DNA of 64,000 bases from Fidelibacterota bacterium (lineage in GTDB: Bacteria > Fidelibacterota > Marinisomatia > Marinisomatales > TCS55): assembly GCA_014239435.1 (NCBI GenBank), contig JAAZYX010000008.1:1-64000 (forward strand), read 5' to 3'. Below, in pieces: positions 4,551 to 29,717 of this stretch (positions are counted from its first letter, which is position 1; each line of letters starts with the position of its first letter). Position numbers and translations under genes: made by a program. Under the pieces are notes generated by a model. The model was not told the origin of the DNA. It made no database searches and saw only the letters and a list, made by a program, of their open reading frames with translations.

Positions 4551-5168
4551 ATGGGTCAAAAGACACATCCAATTGGTTTCAGACTTGCAGTAAATAAAAA
4601 CTGGCGGTCCAATTGGTTTGCCAAAAAATCGATGGCGCCGGATTTGGAAGAGGATGTCAATATCCGGAAATATTTGGATTACAGATTGCCGAACGCTGGC
4701 ATTTCCCGTGTCGAAATCAGCCGGTCATCTAAGGTGGTTACGGTTACTATTTATACAGCGCGACCGGGAATTGTAATCGGTAAAGGTGGAGAAGAAGTCA
4801 AGCGCTTGAAAGAGGAAGTAAAACAGATATCCAAAAAGCACGACGTTCAAATCAATATTTCTGAAGTAAAACGTCCTGAGCTTGATGCAGCGTTAGTGGG
4901 TGCAAATATAGCCCATCAGCTCATTAAAAAGATATCCTACCGTCGGGTTGTGAACAAAGCAATTCAATCCACAATTCGAATGGGAGCGGAAGGAATTCGT
5001 GTTAATGTAGCAGGCCGGCTTGGTGGATCTGAAATTGCTCGAAGCGAAAAATTTGCAGACGGCCGTGTTCCCCTTCATACGCTAAGATCAAACATTGATT
5101 ATGCACTTACAGAAGCAAAAACACAATATGGAGTAATAGGGATTAAAGTCTGGATTTGTAATAGGTAA
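4551..5168 (+). CDS. rpsC: 30S ribosomal protein S3
   Basis: Small-subunit protein at the mRNA entry channel. The 205-aa protein begins [12 protein letters not shown] and contains the KH-domain signature [17 protein letters not shown] at about residues 72-88; it ends [12 protein letters not shown], slightly shorter than the 210-230 aa usual in other phyla, so the C-terminal extension is minimal. The order rplV-rpsC-rplP is standard. Confidence 0.98.
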
Positions 5169-5173
5169 TAACA

Positions 5174-5587
5174 ATGCTGGAACCGAAAAAAACAAAATAT
5201 CGCCGCCACCATCGTGGGAACCGACGGGGAATGGCCATGCGAGGAAACCATGTTGCATTTGGAAGTTACGGTCTGAAAGCACTGGAAGGCGGATGGATAA
5301 CAGCCCGTCAAATCGAGTCTTCTCGTATAACAGTTGCAAGAGCCGTAAGAAAACTTGGAAAAATGTGGATCCGAATTTTCCCGGATAAGCCGATCACAAA
5401 AAAACCGGCTGAAACCCGTATGGGTAAAGGAAAAGGGTCTCCGGAGTATTGGGTTGCCGTAGTAAAGCCCGGCCGCATTTTATTTGAAGTGGAAGGTGTC
5501 TCAAAGGAAATTGCAGAAGAAGCTTTTTATGCCGCATCCAGTAAATTGCCGATCAAAACTAAAGTCGTGGAACGGCGGGCAATATGA
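5174..5587 (+). CDS. rplP: 50S ribosomal protein L16
   Basis: Large-subunit protein near the A-site tRNA. The 137-aa protein shows the family motifs [14 protein letters not shown] near the N-terminus, ARRA/TRHV-type [20 protein letters not shown], and [20 protein letters not shown] in the centre; the latter holds the conserved Arg that is hydroxylated in some bacteria. The stop overlaps the rpmC start (ATGA). Confidence 0.98.
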
Positions 5588-5811
5588 AAATCAGCGAATT
5601 GACAGGTATGAATCAGGCAGAATTGGAAAGCCGGCTAATCGATAACAAAGAAGCGCTTAGAAACCTTCGCTTCCAAAAAGCGATGCATCAATTGGAAAAC
5701 CCGCTACAATTGAGACATTTGAGACGGGAAATTGCACAGATTAATACGGTGCTAAGAGAATTAGAACTAAATATCCGTTCAAGCGGAGAGGCTAAAGATT
5801 CAAATGAGTAA
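5584..5811 (+). CDS. rpmC: 50S ribosomal protein L29
   Basis: Small helical protein at the tunnel exit. The 75-aa protein begins [18 protein letters not shown] and contains [29 protein letters not shown], the two-helix pattern of the family. It carries a 10-residue C-terminal extension beyond the usual 65 aa. It overlaps both neighbours, by 4 nt with rplP and 8 nt with rpsQ. Confidence 0.95.
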
Positions 5812-6073
5812 AGAACGCAAAAGACAAACACTTACCGGTGAAGTCATCAGTGATAAGATGGATAAAACAGTTGTGGTAAAAGTTACCAGACTTGTTCGCC
5901 ATCCGATGTATAAAAAATATGTTAAACGGTTTAATAATCATAAAGCACGCACAGGCGCAGTCACTCCTAAAATGGGAGATATTGTTATAATTTCAGCCAC
6001 GCGACCGTTAAGCAAAACAGTCCGATGGCAGGTAAGTGAAATTGTCAGAGAATCGGTATTGATTGACGGTTAA
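5804..6073 (+). CDS. rpsQ: 30S ribosomal protein S17
   Basis: OB-fold 16S rRNA-binding protein. The 89-aa length is typical. The sequence [31 protein letters not shown] followed by [18 protein letters not shown] is diagnostic. The Shine-Dalgarno-like GCGGAGAG lies in the end of rpmC. This is the last gene of the classical S10 operon; rplN follows after 2 nt, so there is no visible break between the S10 and spc blocks. Confidence 0.97.
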
Positions 6074-20448: not shown

Positions 20449-20615
20449 TGGTGTCCTGGGTGCAAATACCTTTGATATAATTTTAGCAATAACATAATGA
20501 TACACAAAGAAGTTTAGACTTCATTCTGAGCGAAAGTAAATAATACACAGCCAATTCGCCTGCTTTGTTACTCCGTTTGCGCTGAATAAATTCACGCTCA
20601 CGATTGAGCAATCAA

Positions 20616-22274
20616 ATGGCTGAAGAAATCCACGCACCCACCGGGACAGACCTCACGTGCGCCAACTGGCAAATCGAGGCGCCGTACCGTATGATTCAAA
20701 ACAATCTCGATCCTGACGTTGCGGAAAATCCGGATAATCTCGTCGTGTACGGCGGAAAAGGAAAGGCCGCACGAAATTGGGAATGTTATCATTCCATTCT
20801 CGAAACGCTGAAGCGGATGCAGCCGGATGAGACGCTTTTGGTTCAGTCCGGAAAACCGATAGGCGTTATCAAGAGTCATACAACATCCCCGAGAGTTTTG
20901 ATTGCCAATTCCAATCTTGTCCCGGAGTGGGCAAACTGGGACCACTTCAACGAGCTGGATAAAAAAGGGCTAATGATGTACGGGCAGATGACGGCCGGTT
21001 CGTGGATTTACATCGGGACACAGGGGATTTTGCAGGGCACGTACGAAACATTCGCCGCTGCCGGAAAAACGCATTACGACAGTGACCTTACCGGGAAGAT
21101 CGTTCTCACGGCTGGTCTCGGCGGCATGGGCGGCGCACAGCCATTGGCGGTAACGATGAACAACGGAGTTGCCATTTGCATTGATATTGATCCGCACAGC
21201 ATTCAGCGCCGCCTGGAAACGCGCTATTTGGATGTTTCCACAGAAGAAGTTGACGAAGCGGTTTCCATGGCCCAAAAGGCCGCGGAATCGGGTAAACCGC
21301 TCTCTATTGGGCTTTTGGGCAATGCCGCCGATCTTGTACCGAAATTCGCCAAAATGGACACGATTCCGGATATGGTTACCGATCAGACCTCCGCACACGA
21401 TGAACTGGACGGATACGTTCCGAACGGTATGACGTACGAAGAAGCGCTTGCACTTCGGAGATCTGATCCGAAAAAATATGTACAGGAAAGTTTCCGCGCA
21501 ATGGGCGAGCATTGCCGGGGCATGCTGGATCTCATGAAAAGAGGATGCATCACCTTTGATTACGGCAATAATCTCCGTGGACAGGCGAAAAAGGCCGACG
21601 TTGAGAATGCATTCGATTTTCCGGGGTTTGTTCCCGCATATGTGCGTCCGCTATTTTGTGAAGGAAAAGGACCGTTTCGCTGGGTGGCGCTCTCGGGCGA
21701 TCCGGAAGATATTTACAAAACGGACGAGCGCGTCCTGGAACTTTTCCCTGAGGATGAAACGCTGTCCCGCTGGATCGGAATGGCAAAAGAAAAAATTCAA
21801 TTCCAGGGATTACCGTCGCGGATTTGCTGGCTGGGATATACACAGAGAGCAAAATTTGGCGTGGAGCTCAATCGCATGGTTGCCAGCGGCGAACTCAAAG
21901 CGCCGATCGTTATTGGTCGTGATCATCTTGATACCGGTTCGGTCGCCTCTCCGTACCGAGAAACAGAAGCTATGAAAGACGGCTCGGACGCTGTTGCCGA
22001 TTGGCCATTGTTAAACGCACTTGCTAACACGGCCAGCGGCGCAACGTGGGTTTCTATCCATCACGGAGGCGGCGTAGGTATGGGACTCGCGATTCACGCC
22101 GGACAAGTGATTTGCGCTGACGGAACTCCGGAAATGGAAAAACGTCTCAATCGTGTGCTGACTTCCGATCCGGGAATGGGATTATTCCGTCACGCGGATG
22201 CCGGTTACGAGGATGCGATCGAAAATGCCAGAGACTGGGATGTGGATATTCCTATGCTGGATTCAACATCCTGA
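20616..22274 (+). CDS. hutU: Urocanate hydratase
   Basis: Converts urocanate to 4-imidazolone-5-propionate in histidine breakdown, using tightly bound NAD+. The 552-aa length is normal. Family motifs include [19 protein letters not shown] near the N-terminus, [15 protein letters not shown] (NAD-binding glycine run), [25 protein letters not shown] and [22 protein letters not shown] 12 nt upstream is in frame, but ATG 20616 is more likely; no clear ribosome binding site is present for either. hutI follows after 18 nt; hutH is not in this window. Confidence 0.97.
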
Positions 22275-22292
22275 TTCTAATCCAATATATCC

Positions 22293-23480
22293 ATGATTCT
22301 CTCAAATATTAGTCAAATTGCTACTTACAATCCATCGTCGGAAAAGGTAGAAATATCAGATGACTCACAACTCTGTATCCAGAATGGACTCTTCTCAGAA
22401 TCTTCTGATGGTGAAACATTCGATTGTGCAGGCGGACTTGTTACACCGGGATTTGTAGATCCACACACGCATCCGGTTTATGTTGATGCAAGAGAGGATG
22501 AAATCGCTCAGCGATTAGCCGGAACCTCTTACGAAGAAATTGCAGCAACCGGCGGCGGAATCAATGCCAGTATCCGCGCAGTCCGTGAAGCATCCGAAGA
22601 AATTCTCAAAAATAGTCTTTCAAAACGCATGGATAACTTTCTGAAATTAGGCACTACAACCGTCGAAGCAAAAAGCGGATATGGTCTAAATACAGAATCA
22701 GAACTCAAATCACTTAAAGTTATTGATGAAGTAAATAAATCCCATCCGATTGACATAGTTCCAACTTTTTTAGGCGCGCACGCCATTCCGCCGGAATTCA
22801 GGGATAATTCTGAAGGATTTGTGGATCTTATCTGCGATGAAATGATTCCGGCAGTAGCGGAACAGGGAATCGCAGAATTTTCCGACGTGTTCTGCGAAAA
22901 CGGATATTTTGATGTGAATCAATCCAGAAGAATTCTGACTGCCGCAAGAGAAAATGGAATGAATCTCAGGATGCACGCGGATGAATTTGAGGATTCCGGC
23001 GCCGCGGAACTTGCCGGAGAACTGCGCGCGGTATCAGCGGATCATCTTATGATGGTAAGCAAAAGCGGAATTAGGGCGCTGAAAGAGAATCGTGTTATCG
23101 CCACACTTTTGCCGGGAACAACACACTTTTTGGGGAAGAAAGGGTTTGCGCCGGCACGAAAACTGTTTGATGAAGGCATTACCATTGCATTGGCAACAGA
23201 CTTCAATCCCGGCAGCTGCAGAATAAATTCAATGCCGTACATCATGTCGCTTGCTGTGGAGGAAATGCAAATGACCGTTGAAGAAGCATTTGCATCGGCA
23301 ACCTATCATGCCGCAGAATCTCTCGGGATAGAAGATAAAATCGGTTCCATTGAGTTCGAAAAACAGGCCGATCTTATCGTTTGGGATGTGGAATCGCTGG
23401 ATGATATTCCAAACCGAACAAACTCGCTTCCGATTCGATCTGTAATCAAACGTGGAAAACACTTTGAGGTAAGCGGTTGA
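22293..23480 (+). CDS. hutI: Imidazolonepropionase
   Basis: Amidohydrolase that opens 4-imidazolone-5-propionate to N-formimidoyl-L-glutamate, the step after HutU. The 395-aa product has GFVDPHTHPVYVDAR with the metal-binding HTH, KSGYGLN (substrate loop), NLRMHADEFEDSG with a metal His, AVSADHLM and TDFNPGSCRINSMP with the catalytic Asp. It is in operon order with hutU; the genes for further conversion to glutamate are not visible here. gdhA further along could use the glutamate formed. Confidence 0.96.
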   Translation: MILSNISQIATYNPSSEKVEISDDSQLCIQNGLFSESSDGETFDCAGGLVTPGFVDPHTHPVYVDAREDEIAQRLAGTSYEEIAATGGGINASIRAVREASEEILKNSLSKRMDNFLKLGTTTVEAKSGYGLNTESELKSLKVIDEVNKSHPIDIVPTFLGAHAIPPEFRDNSEGFVDLICDEMIPAVAEQGIAEFSDVFCENGYFDVNQSRRILTAARENGMNLRMHADEFEDSGAAELAGELRAVSADHLMMVSKSGIRALKENRVIATLLPGTTHFLGKKGFAPARKLFDEGITIALATDFNPGSCRINSMPYIMSLAVEEMQMTVEEAFASATYHAAESLGIEDKIGSIEFEKQADLIVWDVESLDDIPNRTNSLPIRSVIKRGKHFEVSG

Positions 23481-24256: not shown

Positions 24257-24285
24257 AAAAGGGCTCCTTCGGGAGCCCTTTTTTT
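24257..24285. terminator. Bidirectional intrinsic terminator
   Basis: AAAAGGGCTCC (24257-24267), TTCG loop, GGAGCCCTTTT (24272-24282) and a further T-run to 24285. The A-run and T-run on the two flanks allow termination in both directions, serving the small membrane gene on the plus strand and the convergent DUF92 fusion, whose TAA lies at 24284-24286. Confidence 0.9.
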
Positions 24286-25765
24286 ATATCAGGATGAAAA
24301 AATAAACGATCAAAGCACCAATAATCGTATTTATAAAATTCACCATATCATTGTCCATCCAATTGAGTCCGCGTACATGCTGAGCTATGCTGCCGCAATG
24401 CTCCCGCTTTTCGGTTTCTTTTCCGCAGGATTCGCAATTAAACCGAGCCTGCATTGTTCCGCCCAAAATAGAATCAGCGAAACTTCCAATGAAACCCGCA
24501 CCGATAATAATCCAAAAATTTTCAGGATGCATGCCAAGTAATAATCCGACACTGGCAATGGAAGCGGTTCCAAGCAAAGATCCAAATGTTCCGAGGATTG
24601 TAACACCGCCGGATGTCCCTTTTTCTACCCGTTTGAAAGAGAGCAATTGCCGCGGATTTGATCGGCTGAAATATCCGATTTCAGTTGCCCACGTATCGGC
24701 CGCTGCCGCAGCTACGCTCCCGAGAAATAAGAGAAACGCGCCATCGAATGGGAAGAAAAAATTCCAGAGTAAAATAAGTGTTCCGACCCCGCCGTTTGCC
24801 AACACCTGAATGATGTCTCGGCGGGACTCTTTTGTATTTTTTTGGTTTCCGATTTTTGATATAAAGGATGAAAAAATGAAAAAAGTTAAAAGCGGAACTA
24901 CACCGTGAATTCCATTTGTGCCGAAAACCAAAACACCCATCAGAAAAGCGCCAGCCGTTCCGCTTGCCGAAAGCGTTTTTAATCGAAAGGCGTACAAAAA
25001 GATAATCCCGGAACCGATGGTCCACAGTAAAAGTATCGGCAGAGTTCCATGTGTATAGTTGATTAAATAAAGTTCATAGGTAACGGCTGTAATCAGCGGA
25101 ACGGATAGATTATCTGAACCTTTGCACGATACACTTTCTGCCAATGTTGCCGTCATTCCCACGAAGCCGGCGAGGCCGATAAGAATCGGAAGCGGAATAA
25201 AAAATGCGGCACTGAAAATCCATGCAAAAAAATCTGTTCCAATATAGATTATGAAAAAAGCTGCGAGGAACATTGCTGTAGATCCTTCAAGACTTTTCGA
25301 ATCTTTCCATAATGTGAATCGCCGCGGTTGTTCCGATTTTGATCCCGCGATTCCGGCGGTGGTATCCGCAAGCGCCATCACAAGCATGCTTAAGATTAAG
25401 GTAATCGGCTTCTCCCAGAAAAATGCTGCAAGTATCAGAAAACTGATCGGGAAATAAACGGTGCCGTAGGTTTTGCGGTCGGTGGAATGCATTCCTTTCA
25501 ACGATTCGGATTTGAGAGAAATTGCGTTAACCACCATAAAGATAGCCGCAAGCGACATCGGCTGTAGATTTGATTTAAAAATAAACGGACAAGTCGCAAC
25601 CAGTATTCCGACAAGTACATGTACAAATTTTCGGGACGATTCAGGATGTACATTCAACTTGGAAAGCATGAATTCTGCCGAGCCGACCAAGACAAGAATG
25701 CCAATAAAAAAGAATCCGAATGTCATCCATTCATTGACAAAAGGTTGAAAAATAGGAAGATTCAT
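24284..25765 (-). CDS. Phytol/dolichol-kinase-like and DUF92 (prenyl-phosphate kinase) fusion
   Basis: Integral membrane protein of 493 aa that joins two families. The N-terminal half (about residues 1-240) matches the CTP-dependent phytol/dolichol kinase type (VTE5/SEC59): HPESSRKFVHVLVG near residue 40 and LADTTAGIAGSKS then DSKSLEGSTAMFL. The C-terminal half (about 255-490) is DUF92, the VTE6/TMEM19 family of phytyl-phosphate kinases: QVLANGGVGTL, AAAAADTWATEIGYFSRS, KGTSGGVTILGTFGS and a late CESC motif. Together they could turn a prenyl alcohol such as phytol or geranylgeraniol into the diphosphate in one protein. About ten or more membrane segments are expected. The activity is inferred from family membership. 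Confidence 0.8.
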   Translation of the reverse strand: MNLPIFQPFVNEWMTFGFFFIGILVLVGSAEFMLSKLNVHPESSRKFVHVLVGILVATCPFIFKSNLQPMSLAAIFMVVNAISLKSESLKGMHSTDRKTYGTVYFPISFLILAAFFWEKPITLILSMLVMALADTTAGIAGSKSEQPRRFTLWKDSKSLEGSTAMFLAAFFIIYIGTDFFAWIFSAAFFIPLPILIGLAGFVGMTATLAESVSCKGSDNLSVPLITAVTYELYLINYTHGTLPILLLWTIGSGIIFLYAFRLKTLSASGTAGAFLMGVLVFGTNGIHGVVPLLTFFIFSSFISKIGNQKNTKESRRDIIQVLANGGVGTLILLWNFFFPFDGAFLLFLGSVAAAAADTWATEIGYFSRSNPRQLLSFKRVEKGTSGGVTILGTFGSLLGTASIASVGLLLGMHPENFWIIIGAGFIGSFADSILGGTMQARFNCESCGKETEKREHCGSIAQHVRGLNWMDNDMVNFINTIIGALIVYFFILI

Positions 25766-25816
25766 AACTGTGGAAAATAGATAGAAAGGGGGCGAAGGTT
25801 CGCCTTAAAATTGGCT

Positions 25817-26728
25817 ATGGGAACTCATGAATTTGAGCAGGATGTTCGAAACCAAGATATCCTAATTTATATCAACGGCGACCTTATTGCGCGAAAGGAT
25901 GCGAAAATATCCGTTTTTGATAGCGGATTTCTGTTAGGCGACGGCGTGTGGGAGGGCATTCGTTTTCATAACGGACATCTTGCTTTTATTGAAGAGCACA
26001 TGGACCGCATCTATTCCTGTGCTGCCGATATTGGAATTAGGATTGGTAAATCGAAGGAAGAGCTCATATTAATTCTTAAGGATACACTTAAGGCAAATGC
26101 CATGGAATCCGGTGTGCACCTACGATTGATTATTTCACGCGGGCTCAAGAAAACACCGTATCAGCACCCCAACGCGAATATAGGTGGACCGACCATTGTG
26201 GTCATTCCGGAATATAAAACGGCCGATCCGAATGTGAATACAAATGGAATTCGAATTGGCACCGTTTCCATCCAAAGAGCAACGGCCAAAACGCAGGACC
26301 CGAAGCTGAATACCTTGAGCAAACTGAATTGCATTTTGGCCTGCATCGAAGCGGATAAACTCGGATTTGACGAAGGACTCATGCTTGATATCAACGGATT
26401 TGTGTCCACCTGCAACTCAACCAATTTTTTCATCGCTCGCGGCGGTGAAGTGTGGACGTCCAAAGGGGATTATTGCCTCAATGGCGTTACGCGGGGAAAC
26501 ATCATTTCTGTGTGCAACGAAAATGATATTCCGGTATTTGAAAAAGATTTTCTGGTAGAAGATGTGCACTCGGCGGATGAGTGTTTTGTAACCGGAACCT
26601 TTGCCGGTGTTATTCCGGTAATTGAAGTGGACGGGTTAAAAATTTCTGACGGAAAGCGCGGGTCCGTAACGGAACAGCTTCAATCCCTGTACACAGAACG
26701 CATCGAAAGGTTTTATCCGAAATCATGA
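25817..26728 (+). CDS. Aminotransferase class IV (BCAT/D-amino-acid-transaminase fold)
   Basis: PLP enzyme of fold type IV; substrate not known. The 303-aa product has YINGDLIARKDAKISVFDSGFLLGDGVWEGIRFHNG at the start, with the conserved phosphate and substrate loops. The likely PLP Lys is in PKLNTLSKLNCILA, and GFVSTCNSTNFFIARGGE follows, where the Glu that normally contacts the PLP ring nitrogen appears to be Thr. LNGVTRGNIISV is the next typical stretch. ATG 25817 is chosen over TTG 25811. It overlaps the sulfotransferase gene by ATGA, so the pair is co-translated. A GGCGA-TCGCC hairpin (25791-25804) precedes the start. Confidence 0.85.
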   Translation: MGTHEFEQDVRNQDILIYINGDLIARKDAKISVFDSGFLLGDGVWEGIRFHNGHLAFIEEHMDRIYSCAADIGIRIGKSKEELILILKDTLKANAMESGVHLRLIISRGLKKTPYQHPNANIGGPTIVVIPEYKTADPNVNTNGIRIGTVSIQRATAKTQDPKLNTLSKLNCILACIEADKLGFDEGLMLDINGFVSTCNSTNFFIARGGEVWTSKGDYCLNGVTRGNIISVCNENDIPVFEKDFLVEDVHSADECFVTGTFAGVIPVIEVDGLKISDGKRGSVTEQLQSLYTERIERFYPKS

Positions 26729-27480
26729 AGGAACCTGTCAGAATTGCGATGTGGTCTGGTCCGAGAAATATCTCAACCGCTATGATGCGCTCGTTTGAAA
26801 ACCGTCCGGATACCACGGTAATAGATGAACCGTTTTACGCCTACTCTCTCGTGAAAACCGGAATCAATCATCCTGGACGAAATGACATTATTCAATCTAT
26901 GGAAACCGATTGGAGAAAGGTTGTAAACACCATCACCGGTCCGACGCCAGATGGCGCTTCCGTCTGGTATCAGAAACACATGGCGCACCACATGCACGAT
27001 GAAGTTGCTTTGGATTGGTATTCAAATCTGCGGCATTGTTTTCTCATCCGCGATCCGAGGGAAGTTATTTTATCGTATTCCCAAACATTTGAAATTTCAG
27101 ATGCTCGCCTGTTGGGATATCACAAACAGGTTGAGCTTTTTAATCGTATCGCAGACGAATCAGAAACGATCCCGCCGGTTTTGGATGCGAAGGATATATT
27201 GGAGAATCCCAAAGATGTTTTATCTGCATTGTGCGATCAATTGGGAATTCCCTTCATGAATGAAATGCTGGGATGGCCACCGGGGAAAAGAGATTCTGAT
27301 GGTGTGTGGGCAAAATATTGGTACACGGTTGTGGAAGCATCATCCGGGTTTTCGCCTTATCGGGATCGGAAAGGTATTTTATCTGATGAACAGAACGAAA
27401 TTTTTGAAGCAGTAACTCCATTGTACCATCATTTACACAGCCGCAGAATCAGAGGAGGAAAACATCATGTTTCCAGCTGA
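26725..27480 (+). CDS. Sulfotransferase-like protein
   Basis: 251-aa P-loop protein. The 5' phosphosulfate-type motif is MWSGPRNISTAMMRSF at the N-terminus and the second (3'-phosphate) motif is LIRDPREVILSYSQTFE around residue 108. It probably binds PAPS or a similar nucleotide, but the acceptor is unknown. It overlaps the aminotransferase by 4 nt and pepP by 14 nt. From memory, plant branched-chain aminotransferase-like proteins carry a sulfotransferase-like domain fused to this aminotransferase type, which makes a functional link plausible. Confidence 0.8.
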   Translation: MKEPVRIAMWSGPRNISTAMMRSFENRPDTTVIDEPFYAYSLVKTGINHPGRNDIIQSMETDWRKVVNTITGPTPDGASVWYQKHMAHHMHDEVALDWYSNLRHCFLIRDPREVILSYSQTFEISDARLLGYHKQVELFNRIADESETIPPVLDAKDILENPKDVLSALCDQLGIPFMNEMLGWPPGKRDSDGVWAKYWYTVVEASSGFSPYRDRKGILSDEQNEIFEAVTPLYHHLHSRRIRGGKHHVSS

Positions 27481-28858
27481 AACCTATATACGCCGAAGGG
27501 AAGAGCTTGCCCAAAAGGTCGAATCGGGAATTATTCTTTTGCTCGGCAACGATGTAAGCCCCATTAATTACAACACTAATATTTATCCTTTTCGGCAGGA
27601 CAGTTCATTTCTGTATTTTAGCGGCATTCGCGAGCCGGCGAACTTTTTGGTTATGGATTTGGATGAGGGAAAAACAACCCTGTACGGTTATGAGCAATCT
27701 ATGGATGACATTGTGTGGGAAGGTGAACGGGCACCGCTTGCGGTTCAGGCAGAATTGGCCGGAATTCCTTCGGTTCAGGATATTGAATTTGGTGCTGGAT
27801 TTCTGCTGACGGAATCCATGAAGGAACGCACCATTCATGTGCTTCCGGCATATCAGGAAAAACACCTGCATTTTCTTGCGAAATTCTTCGCGGCTGAAAT
27901 CAAAAATTTAGAGGCGGTATATTCTCATCGTTTGATTGAGGCTGTTGTATCGCAGAGGTCTGTTAAGGAAGTTCAGGAAGTGGATGAAATCCGAAAAGCA
28001 ATTGCCGTGTCTGATCTGATGCATCGGGAAGCAATGGCGCATTGTAAGGACGGTATCAAGGAACAGGCAGTTGTTGCACAGATGGACCGAATTTGCGGTG
28101 AAAACGGCGTCAATATGGCGTATGCGCCCATCTTTACCCAGCGAGGTGAGATTCTCCACAATAATATGCATAATGCCATTTTAAAGGATGGAAATCTTGT
28201 TTTGAATGATTCCGGTGCTGAGTCACCGTTTCATTACGGTAGTGATATTACGCGCACATTCCCCGTCAACGGATCATTTTCGGATAGACAGAAAGACATT
28301 TATTCCATCGTTCTCAAGGCACAGCAGGAAATGATAGGCGCGGTAATGCCTGGAATCCCATTTGCGGATTTGCATAACCGAGCGTCCGAAATTATCGCGG
28401 TAGGATTAACCGAATTGGGAATCATGAAAGGCGATCCGAAAGAAGCCGTTTCCAAAGGCGCGCACGCCTTATTTTTTCCGCACGGACTTGGACATTTTCT
28501 CGGATTGGATGTGCACGATATGGAAGGTTTGGGCGAAGATTTTGTCGGCTACAGCGAAGGACAGGAACGCAGCGAACAGTTCGGATTGAACCATCTTCGA
28601 CTGGCGAAAGAATTGAAAGAAGGATTTGTTCTGACCGTGGAACCGGGAATTTATTTTATTCCCAAACTGATAGACGGCTGGAAATCCACCGGTGCCTGGA
28701 AGGACTTTATCAATTTTGAAATGCTGGAAGATTATCGCGAATTTGGCGGCATCCGTCTCGAAGACAATATTCTAGTTACATCCATAGGCGCGGATAATCT
28801 CAGTGCATCCATCCCCAATATGCCGGAAGAGATTGAAGCCTTGATTGGAACCGCGTAA
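27467..28858 (+). CDS. pepP: Xaa-Pro aminopeptidase (M24B)
   Basis: Cleaves an N-terminal residue preceding proline; cytoplasmic dinuclear metal enzyme. The 463-aa product has the aminopeptidase P N-domain (residues 1-160) with YPFRQDSSFLYFSGI. The catalytic pita-bread domain follows, with ligands in LNDSGAESPFHYGSDITRTFPV (two Asp), FFPHGLGHFLGLDVHD (His), LTVEPGIYF (Glu) and GGIRLEDNILVT (Glu). GAGGAGG at 27452-27458 sets the start. It overlaps the sulfotransferase gene and is followed by a methyltransferase. Confidence 0.93.
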   Translation: MFPAETYIRRREELAQKVESGIILLLGNDVSPINYNTNIYPFRQDSSFLYFSGIREPANFLVMDLDEGKTTLYGYEQSMDDIVWEGERAPLAVQAELAGIPSVQDIEFGAGFLLTESMKERTIHVLPAYQEKHLHFLAKFFAAEIKNLEAVYSHRLIEAVVSQRSVKEVQEVDEIRKAIAVSDLMHREAMAHCKDGIKEQAVVAQMDRICGENGVNMAYAPIFTQRGEILHNNMHNAILKDGNLVLNDSGAESPFHYGSDITRTFPVNGSFSDRQKDIYSIVLKAQQEMIGAVMPGIPFADLHNRASEIIAVGLTELGIMKGDPKEAVSKGAHALFFPHGLGHFLGLDVHDMEGLGEDFVGYSEGQERSEQFGLNHLRLAKELKEGFVLTVEPGIYFIPKLIDGWKSTGAWKDFINFEMLEDYREFGGIRLEDNILVTSIGADNLSASIPNMPEEIEALIGTA

Positions 28859-28874
28859 GTTCGAGTCCTTCGAA

Positions 28875-29717
28875 ATGGCAGAAAAACAAAAAATAGATTC
28901 AAAAGAAGCCGGTCTGGAAATCGGCCTGCTCATCGGCAGATTTTTCTTCGATACCGAAGATCTGCATTACGGCCTATTTAAAGATGGTCTCGAGCCGAAA
29001 GGAATAAATTTTCGGAAATCACAGAAATATCATTCCGATTTGATCATTGAGAATATTCAGCAAGGAACACAGACTATTTTGGATGTTGGCAGCGGATCGG
29101 GTAACCTTGCGAGAAGATTGCTGGATAACGGTTTTAAAGTAGATTGTGTTTCCCCAAGCAGTTACCTCTCAGACGCAATTCACGAAAAAGTGGGAAATGA
29201 AGCGGAAATTTTCCGATGCAAGTATGAAGACCTTAATACAGACAAGACATACGATCAGATTCAGTTCAGCGAAAGTTTTCAATATGTGCCGGTTGAGCAT
29301 GCGCTGGAACAAACATTTAACATGTTAAATCCGGGCGGGCACCTTCTCATTTGTGATTTTTTCACGCTTCCCGCTGAAGGCGATGTTCCTATTGGCGGCG
29401 GACACAGATATCCGTTTTTTAAGGCAGCAATGGCTCAGACAGATTTTGAACAAATTGTAGATATTGACATTACGGAAGACACCGCTAAAACCATGACGAT
29501 TATGGAAGATTTTATAGAGAAGGTGGCCCAGCCGATTGGGCAGATTTCCGGTAACTACATGGGAAGTCATTATCCAAAGCTGATGAAGCTGTTCCGATGG
29601 AAATTCAGAGAGCGGTACGAAAAAATAAACCGCGTCTATTTTTCGGGTCATCTGAATGCAGAATCATTTATAAAATATAAAACTTACCGGCTGATGGTGT
29701 TTAAAAAGCCGAATTAA
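28875..29717 (+). CDS. SAM-dependent methyltransferase
   Basis: Class I methyltransferase of unknown substrate, 280 aa from ATG 28875; the earlier TTG 28845 overlaps pepP and is less likely. Motif I is ILDVGSGSGNLARRLLDNG at about residue 62, and the acidic end of strand 2 follows in VDCVSPSSY. Motif II-like QFSESFQYVPVEHALE and motif III-like NPGGHLLICDFF are also present. The overall look is that of small-molecule or lipid methyltransferases (UbiE/CFA-like), but specificity cannot be read. Last gene of the aminotransferase operon. Confidence 0.85.
   Translation: MAEKQKIDSKEAGLEIGLLIGRFFFDTEDLHYGLFKDGLEPKGINFRKSQKYHSDLIIENIQQGTQTILDVGSGSGNLARRLLDNGFKVDCVSPSSYLSDAIHEKVGNEAEIFRCKYEDLNTDKTYDQIQFSESFQYVPVEHALEQTFNMLNPGGHLLICDFFTLPAEGDVPIGGGHRYPFFKAAMAQTDFEQIVDIDITEDTAKTMTIMEDFIEKVAQPIGQISGNYMGSHYPKLMKLFRWKFRERYEKINRVYFSGHLNAESFIKYKTYRLMVFKKPN

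Follow-up and report, generated by a model that had tools for sequence, protein, structure and literature searches.

A lysine-less class IV aminotransferase-fold protein and its sulfotransferase partner: a conserved gene pair in Marinimicrobia and other prokaryotes

The window analyzed here, a stretch of 64,000 nucleotides of DNA from a Fidelibacterota bacterium, carries two overlapping genes whose products are a class IV aminotransferase-fold protein without the Schiff-base lysine (AT) and a PAPS-type sulfotransferase (ST). We consider it somewhat better than an even bet (a probability of about 0.55) that AT and ST work as a conserved module of two proteins whose product is a sulfated (or sulfonated) metabolite, derived most likely from an amino-acid-like compound. 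The observations behind this reading are the linkage of the two genes, the folds of their products, the residue changes in AT and the motifs of ST, and it is from these that we infer the transfer of a sulfuryl group, the ligand of AT and the joint action of the two proteins.

The gene pair and its neighbors

All features of the pair lie on the forward strand. The open frame of AT extends from a TTG codon at 25811 to the stop at 26728, and the alignment of the N-termini of its relatives (MGTHEY.. or MSTHEY..) favors the ATG at 25817 as the likelier start. The position at which the pair had been said to begin in the preliminary description of this DNA, 25791, contains no start codon and falls into a small inverted repeat upstream of AT. 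This repeat (GGCGAA-GG-TTCGCC, 25791-25804) has perfect 6-bp arms and is located within the 45-nt gap that separates AT from a divergent membrane-protein gene (24284-25765, reverse strand), a neighborhood that is retained in three other loci (L003, L004 and L006). The AT protein belongs to the class IV fold family (Pfam Aminotran_4, E 1.8e-40), its overall similarity to class IV transaminases is strong, and its nearest named relatives come from Candidatus Neomarinimicrobiota (Marinimicrobia). The ST gene (26725-27480) starts with the ATG of an ATGA overlap, read directly at 26725-26728, which it shares with the stop of AT, and its product matches Sulfotransfer_5 (PF19798, E 1.9e-56); both the overlap and the gene identities proposed earlier are thus borne out.

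AT is the first gene in a run of four. An X-Pro aminopeptidase-like gene (M24 and AMP_N domains, 27467-28858, forward strand) overlaps ST by 14 nt and is in turn overlapped by 14 nt by a SAM methyltransferase-like gene (28845-29717, forward strand, start uncertain), in agreement with the operon described before. In L003, too, the pair is followed by an X-Pro aminopeptidase-like gene, in L126 such a gene comes after the ATP sulfurylase/APS kinase gene, and a homologue of the methyltransferase is found immediately 3' of ST in L004, L005 and L006. A wider conserved operon was considered and rejected since a third gene conserved across phyla is absent; the neighbor survey is weaker for proteobacteria because the gene caller misread GC-rich loci, leaving 28 loci without a called AT. 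Elsewhere in the window, two open reading frames at 20604-23480 resemble urocanate hydratase and imidazolonepropionase of histidine breakdown, as judged by reading their translations.

Co-occurrence of AT and ST

The preliminary description had named the absence of co-occurrence in other genomes as the observation that would count against the pair; what the survey revealed is strict pairing in distant genomes. Among 245 sampled genomes of Marinimicrobia, 78 contain AT, 74 of these 78 also contain ST, and ST was found in none of the 167 genomes without AT (p = 1.7e-58, a value that ignores relatedness and shared ancestry). ST is located directly downstream of 74 of the 81 AT matches in this phylum, mostly within 40 nt as measured between profile edges. 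In Bacteroidota, ST is present in 47 of 345 genomes and AT in all 47 of them. Type N-like AT (assigned by score) occurs in 13 of 194 sampled Thermoplasmatota genomes, and ST adjoins it in all four of these whose loci were fetched. The pair is also present in Alpha- and Gammaproteobacteria, among them the cultured Erythrobacter longus (L099), in marine Euryarchaeota and in a Saprospiraceae MAG.

At the level of individual loci, ST adjoins AT in 18 of the 19 close relatives that were examined first. In the set of genome contigs, 69 of 80 AT loci hold ST, which is directly downstream (within about 200 nt) in 66 of them, further downstream in L087 and L101, and on the opposite strand in L106; the remaining 11 have no ST, and two of these 11 stop at a contig end. 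Chance neighborhood of the two genes is rejected by such co-occurrence and adjacency across distant genomes.

No fusion of AT to ST was seen among the prokaryotic loci surveyed, and the long open frames at some ST matches (L004/L110 and G776) are not fusions. A search for viral relatives found none; the phage matches have about 30% identity and come from records of four to 163 kb. One AT match in a small genome (G106:C1:141549-142388) contains 20 in-frame stop codons and is probably a decayed or mis-assembled copy.

The active site of AT

An alignment with the lysine-bearing class IV protein 5cm0, in which PKLNTLSKLN of AT pairs with PNIKSLNYLN without gaps, places Asn167 (AAT, 26309-26311) where the lysine that forms a Schiff base with PLP would stand. 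Among 165 distinct relatives of AT (the loci fetched first together with Bacteroidota and archaeal loci added later), 162 have lost this lysine (136 have Asn and 26 have His) and three have Lys; in an earlier set of 141 rows from fetched loci, 140 have Asn and one has His, and none has the Glu that normally contacts N1 of PLP. In AT, the position of this Glu is occupied by Thr200 (ACC, 26408-26410) within the motif GFVSTCNS. The replacement of the Glu had been noticed before, together with the suggestion that the reaction may differ from ordinary transamination; ordinary transamination does appear unlikely from the sequences, and the loss of the lysine, which was absent from the preliminary description, is the stronger argument. 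Lys171 (26321-26323) shares an alignment column with the Tyr that, in branched-chain aminotransferases, touches O3' of PLP. In this column, the 136 Asn-bearing (type N) proteins have Lys (132) or Arg (4), and the His-bearing (type H) proteins have mostly Leu.

The residues that contact the PLP phosphate, in contrast, are retained. Arg66 (26006-26008) and Thr227 (26489-26491) are invariant among the 165 relatives and Thr263 (26597-26599) is Thr or Ser in all of them; we presume that their roles are those of Arg59, Thr221 and Thr257 of E. coli IlvE. The loss of three ring contacts, with the phosphate contacts kept, speaks for a different way of holding PLP or PMP in AT, or else for the binding of another phosphate compound. 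Four further residues of the AT pocket, Trp47, His103, Arg105 and Arg110, are invariant across type N.

An alignment artefact at the lysine was ruled out by the ungapped 5cm0 stretch and by class IV paralogues encoded in the phylum and in the same genomes, for which an identical alignment procedure gave the ordinary Lys and Glu, although in several of these paralogues a MAFFT gap displaced the Lys and the column had to be judged by eye. The class IV PLP aminotransferases of known structure (IlvE and D-amino acid transaminase; 5cm0, 5mqz) share with AT the fold family and the PLP-phosphate contacts but, unlike AT, retain both the Schiff-base lysine and the Glu at N1, and they have no ST partner in the loci examined. 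The closest solved chain to AT is a Variovorax protein named 'Aminotransferase, class 4' (7z79; 280 bits, E 1.5e-82), which belongs to the same lysine-less family and has Asn at the lysine site, Ser at the Glu site and Arg where AT of the window has Lys171. A variant of this protein has also been deposited (9j32), in which Lys is found at the position of the Asn; we take the source of both to be Variovorax paradoxus.

Two types of AT

The relatives of AT occur in two layouts. In type N, the form found in the window, the lysine site is occupied by Asn, the Glu is lost and AT precedes ST. In type H, found in Bacteroidota, the lysine site is occupied by His, the Glu is kept and ST precedes AT; judging by the alignment, the loss of the Glu is therefore not common to the whole group. 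Trp47, His103 and Lys113 are common to both types. In Bacteroidota, ST is downstream of 26 of 28 type N proteins and upstream of 19 of 25 type H proteins, i.e., in all 19 cases where the two genes are linked. In one further Marinimicrobia genome (G180), ST is upstream of an AT match that scores lower, and this AT may for these reasons be of type H. A Thermoplasmatota class IV protein (L182 of G398, 4958-5830) also has His in place of the PLP lysine; it has the canonical Tyr103 and Phe47, and there is no ST nearby.

In a phylogenetic tree, the lysine-less proteins as a whole are separated from those that bear the lysine (SH-aLRT 96), and the main type H clade (99) and the type N clade (100) are recovered, with the limits that the tree is unrooted, that the supports come from a quick search and that some outgroup branches are very long. 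One His-bearing sequence is found inside the type N clade: it comes from a Desulfobacula MAG (L054, 4831-5721), its two key residues are His and Ala, and it has no ST.

Proteins without ST make up 20 of the 136 distinct type N sequences. Those from plasmids of Rhodobacterales, Agrobacterium, Pantoea and Pseudomonas nest within type N, as does 7z79, which together with 9j32 is placed among plasmid-borne relatives that have no ST in the sampled members of the branch. This nesting suggests that ST was lost in the branch, as far as the rooting and the moderate supports allow. Among the proteobacterial plasmid loci with lysine-less AT genes and no ST (L022-L028), L026-L028 have amino-acid ABC transporter genes adjoining AT, L025 has them at a short distance, and L023, L026 and L028 have a chloride-channel gene near AT.

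Aminotransferase-like proteins of Arabidopsis combine a class IV C-terminal part with an N-terminal part that is sulfotransferase-like, and they contain the motifs KIHHNN and SETNATN. Both motifs are carried by the type H proteins of Bacteroidota, and with ST also coming first, type H may correspond to the plant fusion, which we treat as a lead. The plant protein is a single chain with ST first and a presumably type H-like AT part, and type H has the same order but is unfused; the window pair consists of two genes, with AT first and of type N. Since type H combines the plant order and motifs with the Glu, the window pair would be a cousin rather than a direct equivalent of an unfused plant-type pair. 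In the literature that was searched on 7z79, PF19798 and the plant proteins, we found nothing on the AT-ST pair and no paper describing 7z79. Plant genomes have been searched with PF19798, and the fusion is not mentioned there (PMC12506393).

ST and the supply of PAPS

ST contains both phosphate-binding elements of sulfotransferases: the 5'-phosphosulfate loop SGPRNIST (residues 11-18, 26755-26778) and the 3'-phosphate motif from Arg109 to Ser117 with the sulfotransferase R-x7-S spacing (27049-27075). Across 130 paired STs, Ser11, Pro13, Arg14 and Ser17 of the loop, Arg109 and Ser117 of the second motif, as well as Glu35 and Lys84, are invariant, and His89 is nearly so; in analogy to known sulfotransferases, Glu35 or His89 could serve as the catalytic base. 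In a Foldseek search with the AlphaFold2 model of ST (mean pLDDT 86.9), the top hits are PAP-bound tyrosylprotein sulfotransferases and the sulfotransferase domain of CurM (best E 3.8e-07), and the superposition on solved sulfotransferases is loose (TM 0.43-0.52, normalized to the query, at 10-15% identity). CurM (4gbm) and tyrosylprotein sulfotransferase (3ap3) share with ST the fold and the 5' and 3' phosphate motifs; ST differs from them in its obligate class IV partner.

Genes for the production of PAPS accompany the pair at several loci. A bifunctional ATP sulfurylase/APS kinase gene is located immediately 3' of ST in L126 and L127, and in L128 ST is followed by cysD and cysN-cysC. Genes of the inositol-monophosphatase family, which includes the PAP phosphatase CysQ, adjoin the pair in divergent orientation in L127, L128 and five related Bacteroidota loci (L178, L179, L199, L200 and L202), the assignment being at the level of the Pfam family, which does not fix their identity as CysQ. 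In a family of small genomes (L130-L138), APS-kinase-like genes near the pair stand among polysaccharide genes and are weaker evidence. An APS kinase (E 1e-38 or better) was detected in 24 of 27 distant genomes with AT, 25 of which have ST in the locus, and in one more at 4.5e-17; the window genome also contains one. In four pair-bearing Marinimicrobia genomes that are 91-96% complete (G120, G131, G157 and G158), neither a convincing APS kinase nor a homologue of the ATP sulfurylase/APS kinase was found, and the supply of PAPS is thus not explained everywhere. A sulfotransferase of the same broad family, encoded on a Dolichospermum plasmid (L029, 7989-8774), adjoins an adenylyl-sulfate kinase gene.

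Possible roles of the pair

If AT and ST form a module, AT would hold a ligand with a phosphate group (a phosphorylated substrate, or PLP or PMP that is not bound as a Schiff base) and would prepare or convert the substrate by a reaction other than classical transamination. ST would move a sulfuryl group from PAPS onto the substrate, and the two proteins would act in succession, perhaps in a complex. Two observations count against the module: the supply of PAPS lacks an explanation in the four genomes named above, and AT persists in genomes without ST, so that it must have a role of its own.

It is unlikely, in our opinion, that AT is a non-catalytic pseudoenzyme which acts as a scaffold, substrate carrier or regulator of ST. 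The loss of both the lysine and the Glu would agree with such a role, as would the fact that this ST subfamily never occurs without AT in the two phyla sampled for it, Marinimicrobia and Bacteroidota. However, the AT pocket is conserved more tightly than a scaffold needs, and several proteobacteria have AT but no ST, some of them with amino-acid transporter genes beside it, which leads us to think it more probable that AT binds or converts an amino-acid-like compound than that it is a pure scaffold.

Similarly doubtful is a ColD-like use of PLP or PMP in the absence of the Schiff-base lysine. ColD (GDP-4-keto-6-deoxymannose 3-dehydratase) is a PLP-fold enzyme of fold type I that works without the lysine, having His in its place. 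Type H, with His at the lysine site and the N1 Glu kept, would be closest to this arrangement and type N would be derived from it; the position of both types on one side of the tree, opposite the lysine-bearing proteins, and the retained phosphate contacts are consistent with such a scenario. Type N, on the other hand, has Asn instead of His, has lost the Glu and has Lys or Arg at the equivalent of IlvE Tyr164, so that the pyridine ring would be poorly held, and with ColD being of another fold type the comparison is one of analogy.

In a bolder version of the module, which we regard as improbable, a reactive intermediate derived from an amino acid would be made or held by the lysine-less class IV protein and sulfurylated by ST, for example to a cysteate- or taurine-type sulfonate; this would be an unrecognized and widespread step in marine bacteria, archaea and, if the link to the plant fusion holds, plants. 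Finally, that AT is an ordinary transaminase which tolerates Asn, with ST as a coincidental operon partner, is hardly credible despite the strong similarity to class IV transaminases, given that nearly all relatives have lost the lysine when paralogues from the same genomes keep Lys and Glu, that the pairing is near-obligate and that a lysine-restoring mutant of the Variovorax protein has been deposited.

Implications

The preferred reading thus remains that of a two-protein module making a sulfated or sulfonated compound. A large branch of the class IV PLP fold has lost the very residue by which PLP chemistry is defined, and its pocket is nevertheless rigidly conserved and its ST partner is almost obligate. 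The database labels of AT relatives as branched-chain or D-amino acid aminotransferases are probably wrong, and AT and ST together probably perform a chemical step that has so far not been described. The pair is kept in Marinimicrobia whose genomes measure only 0.7-1.0 Mb and in Poseidoniales with 1.1-1.5 Mb (the genome bin of the window is 1.7 Mb), and its retention there suggests that streamlined cells benefit from its function. The AT-ST pair provides a defined target in the search for a new sulfated metabolite and for understanding how a PLP fold works, or ceases to work, without its lysine.
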